Assembly: GCA_025351325.1 (NCBI GenBank) | Contig: JANXWE010000097.1 | Span: 1-34,107, forward strand | Length of the DNA stretch: 34,107 nucleotides | Source of the DNA: Fimbriiglobus sp. | GTDB taxonomy: Bacteria > Planctomycetota > Planctomycetia > Gemmatales > Gemmataceae | Direction: 5' to 3' | Shown: in pieces, positions 389 through 28,260 of the stretch | Layout of the letters: each line of letters begins with the position of its first letter | Numbering within the stretch: position 1 is the first letter of the stretch | Translations under genes and position numbers: made by a program | The notes under the pieces: model-generated | Told to the model about the DNA's origin: nothing | Databases searched by the model: none | Seen by the model: the letters and a program-made list of their open reading frames with translations, nothing else

Positions 389-2374
389 TCACCACCCCGC
401 CAGCCACGCTTTCGCGGACGCATCGCTGGCCATGCGCCAATCTCCCCGTGGCGACACACTGACCGAACCGACCTTTGGCCCGTCGGGCAAGCAACTACGC
501 TTAAACTGGTTGGCGAAGAAGCGGGTCACGAAGACACGGAGCCAGTTGCGGATTTCGGCCGGGGTGTAGTCAACATGGAACTTGGCGTGGCCCGCCAAGA
601 ACAGGATCTTCTCCGGTGACTCGGCCCAACGAAGGAAGTGGTACAAGAAAAAGTCGACCAATTCATACGGGCCGGTGCTTGATTCGGTCGCTTGGAGTGC
701 TTCGCCCTCCGCCGAGGTCGGCAGCAACTCCGGGGAGATCTCCGTCGCCACGATGTCGCGCAGGGTTGCTTGCGGTTCGCCGGTGAACTCGTTCTCGGCG
801 GCCCAAGTCACGAGGAACTTCACCAATGTTTTCGGAATGCTGATGTTCGGGTTGTACATGCTCATGTGGTCGGCGTTGTAGGTACACCAACCCAGGGCGA
901 GCTCGGAAACGTCGCCGGTGCCGATGACGAACGCGGTGTTCATCAGCAGGTTCGTCCGCACGCGGGCCTGGACGTTTTCAAACGTCAGATCGTGGCGATT
1001 GTCGTGCGGTAGCGCTTGCAGCGCCATCGTCAACGATTCGACGCTGTGGCCAGTGGGGTCAATGCCGAAGGGTTTGTGCTGGAGTGCCTGCATTTCCAAT
1101 AGGCAGAGCGGGCGGATGTCGATATCTTTCGCCGTGACACCGAGGGCCGCCATCAAGGTTTGGGCGTTGGTTTTGGTGCGTTTCGTCGTGCCGAAGCCGG
1201 GCATGGTGATCGCTTGAATCTTCGCCGGGTCTTCGCCGAGTTCCGCAAACGTCTTGCACACCACAAGTAACGCGAGAGTCGAATCGAGACCACCGGAGAC
1301 GCCGATGCTGACCCGCGGTCGGCCAATGTGATCGAGCCGTTTGGCGAGCGCGGCCACTTGCGTGGCAAAAATTTCTTCGCAGCGTTCCCTCAACGTCGCC
1401 GGATCCGACGGCACGAATGGATGCGCATCGACTTCTCGAAGCAAAGTTGGCAGACGTTCCGACTTCGCCAAAGTGAACGGAACAGTGCGGAATGGTTTCA
1501 CCCAGTCCGCTTCGTGGAAACTCCCCAGCTGCAAACGATCCCGCTGGATATGTCCCAGGTCGAGATCATGGATCGTGACATGGCCGCGACGCTGGAACCG
1601 TTCGGACTCGGCCAGCAGCGTGCCATTTTCGGCGATCAAACAGTGGCCGCCGAAGACGAGGTCGGTCGTCGATTCCCCGGTGCCAGCCGAGGTATACACA
1701 TACCCCGCAAGACAGCGCCCACTCTGGCCGACGACGAGTTGCCGGCGGTAGTTCGCTTTGCCGATGGTCTCGTTGCTCGCGGAGAGGTTCGCCAACACCG
1801 TGGCACCGGCCAGCGCTTGAAACGAACTGGGGGGCACCGGCATCCAAAGATCTTCACAGATTTCGACACCGAGCACGAATTCAGGTGCGTTCTCCGCGCG
1901 GAAGAGCAGGTCGGTTCCGAATGGTACGGTCTGCCCGGCCAGGGTGATTGAATTGGAACGAGCATGCGCAGCCGGGTGGAAGTAGCGGCCGTCGTAGAAC
2001 TCTTTGTAATTCGGCAGGTAGGTTTTCGGGACGACACCCAGCAGGCGACTACCGGTGAACACGGCAGCACAGTTGAAGACCATGCCGTCGACGAGCACAG
2101 TCAGACCGACGACGGTGACACCGTGGAAGCAGTGACCGGCCGCGACCAGCAGCGTATCGAGGGCCGCTTCCGCCGCGATCAACAACACGGGCTGATGAAA
2201 CAGATCATGGCAGGTGTAGCCGGAGAGGCCGAGTTCGGGAAAAACGACGAGATCGCACCCGGCCGCATCCGCGTCCCGCAGCAGCGCCAAAGTGCGTTCG
2301 GCATTGAACGAACAATCGGCGACCCGGAGTTCGGGGGAAGCCGCCGCCACGCGAAGGAAGTTGTGGGGAAGCAT
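389..2374 (-). CDS. nadE: Glutamine-dependent NAD(+) synthetase
   Basis: This enzyme makes NAD+ from deamido-NAD+ (NaAD), ATP and glutamine, the last step of NAD synthesis, in the cytoplasm. The N-terminal half is a nitrilase-fold glutaminase with its Glu-Lys-Cys triad visible: Glu47 in VFPELGLSGY, Lys117 in VVPKTYLPNY and Cys173 in GVEICEDLW. The C-terminal half is the synthetase, with the PP-loop ATP motif SGGLDST near residues 359-365. The length (661 aa) is usual for the two-domain type, so ammonia is made in the same polypeptide and no separate glutaminase is needed. The ATG at 2374 is chosen; a GTG at 2386 would add four residues, and neither has a strong ribosome-binding site. The gene follows the PIN toxin on the same strand but appears functionally unrelated to it. 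Confidence 0.95.
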   Translation of the reverse strand: MLPHNFLRVAAASPELRVADCSFNAERTLALLRDADAAGCDLVVFPELGLSGYTCHDLFHQPVLLIAAEAALDTLLVAAGHCFHGVTVVGLTVLVDGMVFNCAAVFTGSRLLGVVPKTYLPNYKEFYDGRYFHPAAHARSNSITLAGQTVPFGTDLLFRAENAPEFVLGVEICEDLWMPVPPSSFQALAGATVLANLSASNETIGKANYRRQLVVGQSGRCLAGYVYTSAGTGESTTDLVFGGHCLIAENGTLLAESERFQRRGHVTIHDLDLGHIQRDRLQLGSFHEADWVKPFRTVPFTLAKSERLPTLLREVDAHPFVPSDPATLRERCEEIFATQVAALAKRLDHIGRPRVSIGVSGGLDSTLALLVVCKTFAELGEDPAKIQAITMPGFGTTKRTKTNAQTLMAALGVTAKDIDIRPLCLLEMQALQHKPFGIDPTGHSVESLTMALQALPHDNRHDLTFENVQARVRTNLLMNTAFVIGTGDVSELALGWCTYNADHMSMYNPNISIPKTLVKFLVTWAAENEFTGEPQATLRDIVATEISPELLPTSAEGEALQATESSTGPYELVDFFLYHFLRWAESPEKILFLAGHAKFHVDYTPAEIRNWLRVFVTRFFANQFKRSCLPDGPKVGSVSVSPRGDWRMASDASAKAWLAGW

Positions 2375-2422
2375 GGGGAAGATCACGCCTTGGTTTGTAC
2401 GGGAGGGCGAGTATTGTCGGTC

Positions 2423-2459
2423 ATTCCTCGTCTGCGATGGTCACCGATTGCAGCATCGC
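2423..2459. repeat. 37-bp direct repeat, copy A (relic gene 3' end)
   Basis: This 37-bp stretch is identical to 3167-3203. Read on the minus strand it encodes AMLQSVTIADEE followed by a stop (TGA at 2421-2423), the same C-terminus as the intact hypothetical gene whose end is copy B. Nothing upstream of it continues that protein, because the PIN toxin gene ends 15 bases away. It is therefore a gene end without a gene: either the remnant of a tandem paralogue or a duplicated target left by insertion of the toxin-antitoxin cassette. Confidence 0.85.
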
Positions 2460-2473
2460 CACTCAGGATGACT

Positions 2474-2869
2474 TCAGATACTCACGATGCGCATGTTCGG
2501 AAAATTTCGGAGTCGATGATCGTTCGTGACGAAGCAGTCGCAACCGCTGACCAGCGCCGAGGCCAAACAAAGTGCATCCGGTGAGCGATACCCTTTGCGA
2601 GCAGCCCTGAATTGTATGGCCTGATCCATCACTGCGCGGTCAAGCGGAACGAACTCGGCCACTTGCTGTGCGAAAAAGTCTTCGAACGATCGCACCCGAT
2701 TAAAGTCACCATTGCGAATGGGAATAACGAGCGTCTCCATTCGAACTAGTTCACTGGAAATGATGGTGTGGGGCCCAAGTTGATCGAGCGCGACCAATAC
2801 TGATGCTGCAAACAGTGGATCCTGTTCGATGAGGTAAATGACGATGACCGAATCGTAAAACACCCTCAT
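2474..2869 (-). CDS. PIN-domain ribonuclease toxin, VapC-like
   Basis: This 131-aa single PIN domain is the expected size of a VapC toxin, a metal-dependent RNase that cuts tRNA or rRNA when its antitoxin is lost. The acidic active-site residues are in place: Asp6 (FYDSVIV), Glu40 (SSELV), Asp98 (SPDAL) and Asp117 (TNDHRL). The start codon overlaps the stop of the preceding antitoxin gene in an ATGA, so the two are translationally coupled, antitoxin first. The pair lies between two copies of a 37-bp direct repeat, which suggests it arrived as a cassette. The RNA target cannot be judged from sequence. Confidence 0.85.
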   Translation of the reverse strand: MRVFYDSVIVIYLIEQDPLFAASVLVALDQLGPHTIISSELVRMETLVIPIRNGDFNRVRSFEDFFAQQVAEFVPLDRAVMDQAIQFRAARKGYRSPDALCLASALVSGCDCFVTNDHRLRNFPNMRIVSI

Positions 2870-3120
2870 CGGTCACCCCAAGATTCCCGCTCTTGGTCGA
2901 CTTGCCGATCAATCTCGTCGCGGCTCATCGGCACATGGCCTTCGGCGCCTTGGCGGACGCGGAGGGCGGTGAGGAATTCATCCAAGCTCCGCCGCGGATT
3001 TTCGCTCGGAACCGGTTGCACCGTCACGAACACCCGACCCGTGCCGACCGGAGCCGGCGTGTCGAGGGTGAGTGTTCGTCCGTCAGTTGTAGTCGCGGTC
3101 GTCGTGAATATTGCACTCAT
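2866..3120 (-). CDS. Antitoxin of the PIN toxin, VapB-like
   Basis: This small protein (84 aa) is encoded directly upstream of the PIN toxin with a 4-base overlap. The N-terminal half looks like a beta-rich domain (LTLDTPAPVGTGRVFVTVQP). The C-terminal half is charged and helical, with a segment RDEIDRQVDQERESWGD near the end of the kind that VapB-type antitoxins use to block the toxin's active site. The ATG at 3120 is preferred because GAGG lies six bases before it; a GTG at 3165 would add 15 unlikely residues. Autoregulation of the pair is expected from family knowledge, but I see no operator that I can defend. Confidence 0.7.
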   Translation of the reverse strand: MSAIFTTTATTTDGRTLTLDTPAPVGTGRVFVTVQPVPSENPRRSLDEFLTALRVRQGAEGHVPMSRDEIDRQVDQERESWGDR

Positions 3121-3164
3121 GAAATACCTCGTTCCATTATCGTACTCCCTTGCCGGTGAATTCA

Positions 3165-3596
3165 CTATTCCTCGTCTGCGATGGTCACCGATTGCAGCAT
3201 CGCTTTCAGGACCGATTCATAGTCCAGCCGATCCAACTCGCTCACTTGTCCCAGAATCAGCAAGTTCCCCTCACTGGTGCTCACGCACCGCAACCAAGCT
3301 TCAATGCTGGTATCGAGTGTGAGAAAGTCGATGTTGTACCCGACCGCCGGGAGGCCACCGACCGATTCCACAACCGGTTCGGCGTCGAGTTCTTTGTACT
3401 CCGCTTTCATCACACTGAGCGCTTCGTCGGTCACTTGCGTCGGGCTGACGGGGCCGGGTCGCAGCGACGCCGTCAGGAATGCCGTGCCGGGGCTGGCCAC
3501 CGAAACCGTCCAAGCGTCGCTGTCGTCTTCGATTTCCAAAGTCCAACTTGCGGGGTACTGGAATGCAATTCCAGAGCGGGTAAACACTTTCAACAT
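3165..3596 (-). CDS. Hypothetical protein, possibly DcrB/PsbP-like fold
   Basis: This 143-aa protein begins at the ATG at 3596, which has GAGG six bases upstream; a longer frame to 3641 lacks this support. It has no signal peptide or membrane segment. The opening (FQYPASWTLEIEDD, then VSVASPG) resembles the small beta-sheet domains of the DcrB/PsbP/DUF1795 kind, but I do not recognise the family with certainty. The last 37 bases of the gene are repeated exactly at 2423-2459 on the far side of the toxin-antitoxin pair. The gene is probably intact, since it ends in a normal stop (TAG at 3167-3165). Confidence 0.6.
   Translation of the reverse strand: MLKVFTRSGIAFQYPASWTLEIEDDSDAWTVSVASPGTAFLTASLRPGPVSPTQVTDEALSVMKAEYKELDAEPVVESVGGLPAVGYNIDFLTLDTSIEAWLRCVSTSEGNLLILGQVSELDRLDYESVLKAMLQSVTIADEE
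3167..3203. repeat. 37-bp direct repeat, copy B (3' end of the hypothetical gene)
   Basis: Identical to 2423-2459. This copy is the authentic 3' end of the 143-aa gene. The two copies bracket the toxin-antitoxin pair almost exactly: 15 bases from the toxin's stop on one side, and the antitoxin start region on the other. Confidence 0.85.
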
Positions 3597-28132: not shown

Positions 28133-28260
28133 CGAAGGCTCACGGTTCCGCCGGCCGGGGGTGACCCTGTACGACATAAGAACCACGATTCGCGGGGTTG
28201 CTCCAGTCTTATGTCGTACAGGGTCACCCCCGGCCGATAGCGGAACTGGAACAGCCTTCG
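28133..28260. repeat. Long msd hairpin with 30-bp perfect arms
   Basis: The inner arms 28152-28181 and 28207-28236 are perfect inverted repeats of 30 bases. A 3-base bulge separates them from a further 7-bp helix (28145-28151 with 28240-28246), and a small internal loop leads to an outer 8-bp helix (28133-28140 with 28253-28260). That gives 45 base pairs in total. The 25-base apex contains a small 5-bp hairpin (CCGCG/CGTGG around AAT on the minus strand). Reverse transcription would give a single-stranded DNA that refolds into an equally long double-stranded stem. Confidence 0.9.

Follow-up and report, generated by a model that had tools for sequence, protein, structure and literature searches.

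Results and Discussion

Architecture of the vapBC-nadE locus

The window, that is, the whole stretch of 34,107 nucleotides analyzed here, belongs to a planctomycete genome of the genus Fimbriiglobus, which comprises 382 contigs and is probably a metagenome bin. A repeat search revealed an exact direct repeat of 37 nt, the two copies of which (2423-2459 and 3167-3203) are 100% identical, lie 744 bp apart and enclose a putative toxin-antitoxin pair. All elements of the locus are on the minus strand, in the following order:

3165-3596, minus strand: hypothetical gene, single-copy, 143 aa, stop codon TAG at 3165-3167, with its 3' end repeated; conserved in the family and without a Pfam or NCBIfam match
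3167-3203, minus strand: repeat copy 1 (repeat search), the last 36 coding bases of the hypothetical gene and the T of its stop codon
2866-3120, minus strand: putative antitoxin gene, VapB-like by position, 84 aa; partner of vapC in the genomes G003 and G001
2474-2869, minus strand: vapC, VapC-type PIN toxin gene (PF01850), 131 aa, with a 4-bp overlap with the end of the antitoxin gene
2460-2473, minus strand: 14-nt joint AGTCATCCTGAGTG from the vapC stop to copy 2, presumed to be a non-homologous junction; absent in relatives, where vapC abuts nadE
2423-2459, minus strand: repeat copy 2 (repeat search), an orphan hypothetical-gene tail that has a stop of its own, TGA at 2421-2423
2375-2420, minus strand: 46-bp spacer from the orphan-tail stop to nadE; with copy 2, it is like the empty-allele junction of the genomes G046 and G077
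389-2374, minus strand: nadE, NAD synthase with an amidase domain (PF02540, PF00795)

An exact 37-mer pair is expected by chance in 34 kb at a frequency of about 3e-14. The original prediction had claimed such a repeat around a toxin-antitoxin pair, and both copies were indeed recovered, with no further copy in the 5.09-Mb assembly even when up to 3 mismatches were allowed. Either copy translates as AMLQSVTIADEE followed by a stop. The repeat, described earlier as the last 37 bases of the neighboring gene, comprises 36 coding bases of that gene and the first base of the stop codon, after which the identity ceases, and consequently copy 1 terminates in TAG and copy 2 in TGA. Two small corrections concern the start of nadE, which is at 2374, and the distance of 46 bp that separates it from the stop of copy 2. 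The upstream gene is intact, in agreement with the proposal of a small cassette situated at a gene end that was preserved, and the two toxin-antitoxin genes are all that lies between the copies, with no integrase among them.

The 131-aa toxin contains a PIN domain (Pfam PF01850, E=4e-12), and the acidic residues expected of VapC could be read from its sequence as D6, E45, D98 and D117. Its nearest relatives in the family are mostly vapC genes adjoining nadE. The 84-aa partner gene gave no Pfam or NCBIfam match and hence belongs to no known DNA-binding antitoxin family; we call it an antitoxin gene because the same gene, with 50-55% identity, precedes vapC at the homologous place in G003 and G001. 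By these features the pair is classed as a VapBC-type system with a putative toxin and a putative neutralizing partner. It resembles the VapBC type II systems in having a PIN toxin gene downstream of, and overlapping, a small antitoxin gene, but differs from them in that the antitoxin lies outside every curated family, and its activity is putative. The hypothetical 143-aa protein matched no Pfam or NCBIfam family, and a contig scan with it as the query gave no match. Searches for tRNAs, Rfam families and PDB relatives yielded none that helped. Elsewhere in the window (28152-28236) there is a perfect 30-bp inverted repeat with a 25-nt loop and no Rfam match, which could represent a terminator or else a repetitive element of small size.

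The nadE neighborhood in related genomes

Each of the three congeners has vapC immediately ahead of nadE, at 3 bp in G003 and G001 and overlapping it in G002, and in none of them is there a second tail of the hypothetical gene. The order is gshA-like - hypothetical - pncB - vapBC - nadE in G003 and gshA-like - vapBC - nadE in G001; in G002, about 20 codons are left of the hypothetical gene, ahead of a broken antitoxin. A PIN toxin gene or vapBC precedes nadE in at least 9 other genomes of the family, and outside the congeners this was seen in G108, G061, G065, G056, G076, G068 and G021. An empty arrangement, with the hypothetical gene directly before nadE and no pair, was detected in G046 (22-bp gap) and G077 (25-bp gap). 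Thus, the family contains occupied as well as empty arrangements, and G076 and G077, which are of one genus, differ in just the presence or absence of the pair before nadE. The arrangement that the original prediction expected of an empty site, with nadE beside the hypothetical gene, was thus seen in two genomes, both from genera other than that of the window.

Given this variation of the neighborhood among the congeners, the wider family and G046/G077, the pair before nadE appears to be an old, unstable resident of the site. Since all three congeners already carry vapC abutting nadE, a simple new arrival of the pair is unsupported. The derived feature of the window is the 99-bp stretch from vapC to nadE that holds the second gene tail. 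This stretch looks like the end of an empty hypothetical-gene/nadE allele, and the window accordingly has the appearance of an occupied allele fused to an empty one. Alternatively, at an old locus of the order hypothetical gene - vapBC - nadE, a local template switch could have placed a 37-bp copy of the hypothetical-gene end between vapC and nadE; as the congeners have vapC directly before nadE, such an event need add only 99 bp. It would not account for the form of the added stretch, namely a gene tail whose stop works, followed by a spacer ahead of nadE, nor for the recurrence at other toxin-antitoxin loci described below, and we regard it as decidedly improbable.

The original prediction had also allowed for a tandem paralogue of the hypothetical gene replaced by the pair, in which case the last 37 bp of the second gene copy would look alike. 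However, the hypothetical gene is matched just once in each of 86 of the 95 family genomes, two paralogues flanking the pair at this place were seen in no genome, and nadE and Mfd, which are other targets of the same pattern, are normally single-copy. The probability that we assign to this explanation is close to negligible.

In a tree of VapC proteins, which accommodates vertical descent of the window's pair as well as its replacement, the linkage to nadE is clustered (3 changes versus 9.5 expected), and the deep branches lack resolution. Linkage of vapBC to nadE is found in several genera (L036, L037, L038, L137, L138, L139, L140, L134), often in the order gshA-like - hypothetical - pncB - vapBC - nadE, and the placement of a toxin-antitoxin pair within an NAD-synthesis neighborhood may be more than chance.

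Direct repeats bracket other toxin-antitoxin pairs

A search for the same kind of repeat around other toxin-antitoxin pairs, as the original prediction had proposed, found it many times, at PIN, MazF and ParE loci. In the raw count, direct repeats bracket 16 of 134 PIN-toxin loci of the family versus 3 of 131 control stretches (p=0.002), the control set being small and the genomes surveyed mostly metagenome bins. Curation, in which paralogue arrays and dispersed repeats were removed by hand after the hits were seen and which depends on judgement, left 11 of 134 PIN loci versus 0 of 131 controls (p=4e-4). Bracketed MazF and ParE loci numbered 2 of 30 each.

In ten units each of the two copies is a gene tail that terminates in an in-frame stop of its own, and the identity ends at most 11 nt from that stop. 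Besides the window, these involve nadE in G002 and genes coding for an enolase-superfamily protein (L068), an unnamed protein (L194), a sulfatase (L247), a DUF1501 protein (L251), a YdjY-domain protein (L264), a NagX-like protein (L307), Mfd (L315) and an altronate-dehydratase-type protein (L337). Not every repeat is a 3' end, as that of L203 is the 5' part of the downstream hydantoinase-B gene; the repeats of L244, L267 and L362 are without clear gene status. Bracketing repeats at L248, L250, L255, L268 and L278 were excluded, being judged paralogue arrays or dispersed repeats, and that of L421 (63 bp) was rejected as a dispersed repeat. L250 (1472-3206) and L278 (1206-2864) have long direct-repeat arrays around PIN toxin genes that are unlike the gene-tail pattern.

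The unit in G002 has the last part of nadE (67 nt) repeated 722 bp downstream with 96% identity. Enclosed by these copies are a small gene resembling an antitoxin gene and the broken 5' part of a MazF/PemK-like gene, the MazF reading having been made by eye. A further 650 kb around nadE, from 80 genomes, contained no bracketing gene tail. Palindromic elements of one design were noted in two genera (L038:4235-4337 and L140:239-341), and in G002 the element interrupts the MazF-like gene; with 30-nt arms, 43 nt between them and the core CGCTCCGCGA, they may represent a dispersed repeat of the MITE or REP type.

L064 and L068, which come from two genera, have related VapBC pairs (66-68% identity), in both cases at the tail of one type of gene. 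In L064 (913-2096) both bracketing tails are of the enolase superfamily and no full-length gene is present upstream, as if tail - VapBC - tail had moved without the gene, or the gene had decayed. For the L194 unit, the congeners of G104 conserve the downstream region with 81-97% identity, the upstream gene was not found in them, and they offer no clean empty site.

Such structures might also be produced by an assembly chimera, in which occupied and empty alleles of co-existing strains are joined in metagenome assembly; a branch of the graph located at the stop codon would produce a tail that stops precisely at that point. The 382 contigs of the probable bin, and the end of identity exactly at the presumed branch point, agree with this explanation. 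So does the only control region with a bracketed VapBC pair (L294, between two 105-bp copies), which was set aside, as a run of N adjoins one of its copies. However, there is no N between the copies in the cases checked, the lengths vary from 28 to about 430, and most copies are non-identical and therefore not k-mer overlaps. Furthermore, the contigs that carry L264 and L068 measure 405 kb (in a genome of 20 contigs) and 164 kb, respectively. We consider a chimera quite unlikely. The pair in L294 (3879-11037) lies between a type IIG restriction-methylase-like gene and a DrmD/BrxHI-like helicase gene, and its exact 105-bp repeat, one copy of which is at the assembly gap, is the 5' part of the helicase gene.

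The two copies as probable alleles of a gene end

Across the units the tail length ranges from 28 to about 430 bp. The last residues differ naturally between copies, as in the pairs LFWMYRRGIFLRI / LFWMYRCGIFLHV and ARAWLGGW / ARAWLEAMG, each followed by its stop, and of the 62 sites at which copies differ, 46 are third codon positions (p=6e-11). Such a bias is not expected of a duplicate that decays where it arose; it suggests that two functional alleles were joined or, in multi-copy families such as the sulfatase and DUF1501 families, paralogues, possibly of the same genome. The copies are identical in the window (37/37) and in L068 (88/88), and the other cases look like two alleles. As the window copies are identical over only 37 bp, the allele test is without power there, and it is the structure of the window together with the other cases that argues for reading it as an occupied plus an empty allele.

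The direct repeats are also reminiscent of a site-specific integrative element that restores gene 3' ends and would since have lost its integrase. Prophages integrating in coding genes supply alternative gene ends, and the synonymous tail differences resemble these. Nevertheless, at least 8 unrelated target genes are involved and the repeat length is variable, in contrast to a constant attachment site; no common core sequence was seen, and the repeats of the window enclose the toxin and antitoxin genes alone, with no integrase. The parallel that the original prediction drew with integrase-driven elements is weak, because many unrelated genes serve as targets, and we hold an element of this type to be highly improbable.

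Another explanation is insertion of the whole pair at once, with in-place duplication of tens to hundreds of target bases, as described for restriction-modification systems. These are reported to insert with long, variable target duplications on the order of 100 bp (Nobusato 2000, Furuta 2010, as cited in PMC3874152), and their footprint and lengths are the same as those seen here; the identical copies of the window and L068 are likewise in its favor. In most other cases, however, it is chiefly third codon positions that distinguish the copies, and the natural C-termini and stops are not the same in several of them, which duplication in place and subsequent decay would not yield. Moreover, the repeat ends cluster at the stop codon, and random duplication would not produce such clustering. 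We therefore judge target duplication to be unlikely.

Proposed integrase-free capture through a gene end

We favor, with somewhat better than even confidence, the proposal that the window is an occupied allele (hypothetical gene - vapB - vapC) fused to an empty allele (tail - 46 bp - nadE) by capture without an integrase. A DNA fragment with a gene 3' end and the adjoining toxin-antitoxin pair would enter a cell having the empty allele. The free end of the fragment would be joined illegitimately, either in forming a circle, which one RecA crossover within the gene tail then integrates, or without a circle, through homology-facilitated illegitimate recombination. Both routes would yield full gene - toxin-antitoxin - truncated gene tail - old downstream gene, with the upstream gene remaining intact, the downstream gene retaining its context and the tail length set by whatever gene end was on the fragment. 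Addiction would then retain an insertion that the direct repeats could otherwise delete.

In the window the gene upstream of the pair is intact and vapC is joined via 14 nt to the inside of a gene tail, giving the seamless side and the presumed non-homologous junction that homology-facilitated illegitimate recombination would leave. Homologous recombination, one of the routes named in the original prediction, is supported as the likely driver. Against capture, it gives no account of why the toxin-antitoxin pair would start right at the stop codon in so many donors.

Taken together, the loci suggest that pairs in this family spread without a transposase, probably by ordinary recombination through a gene end. 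More tentatively, and with less than even confidence, the chromosomal pairs of the family might be viewed as integrase-free mobile units that travel with the 3' end of the upstream gene, integrate by homology in that gene, leave a tail as a scar and are kept by addiction against loss through their own repeats. Little is understood of how chromosomal toxin-antitoxin pairs move when no recognizable mobile element carries them. The duplicated gene tail can be read as a scar that marks an insertion, reveals the joining of two alleles and lends itself to genome-wide counting. Should the pattern hold, such pairs would need no more than ordinary recombination and addiction to spread, and the scar would provide a direct test in any genome collection.

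Comparison with known systems

The insertions reported for restriction-modification systems (PMC3874152) likewise involve a small chromosomal addiction module, direct repeats of tens to hundreds of bp and no transposase. In the present units, by contrast, it is a toxin-antitoxin pair that has been inserted, most repeats are gene ends that finish at the stop codon, and in most cases the two copies represent different alleles instead of identical duplicates. A limited search of the open literature found no report of a long target duplication for toxin-antitoxin pairs.

In Escherichia coli, gene-end fragments were integrated mostly by circularization and a single crossover, with partial gene-end duplications of 109-950 bp, and illegitimate recombination of this type is rare in the laboratory (PMC3240628). 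The one homologous anchor, the one illegitimate join and the partial duplication of a gene end are all shared with the capture proposed here, although that case concerned laboratory conjugation of a marked plasmid, whereas ours is deduced from natural genomes. For the type VI effector-immunity modules of Vibrio cholerae, an illegitimate recombination anchored in a similar way has been put forward (PMC5361080). There too an incoming toxin-immunity module is anchored in a conserved upstream region and the old 3' region is moved downstream, but it displaces an old effector gene or domain, whereas at the loci described here the upstream gene is unrelated to the module and stays intact.
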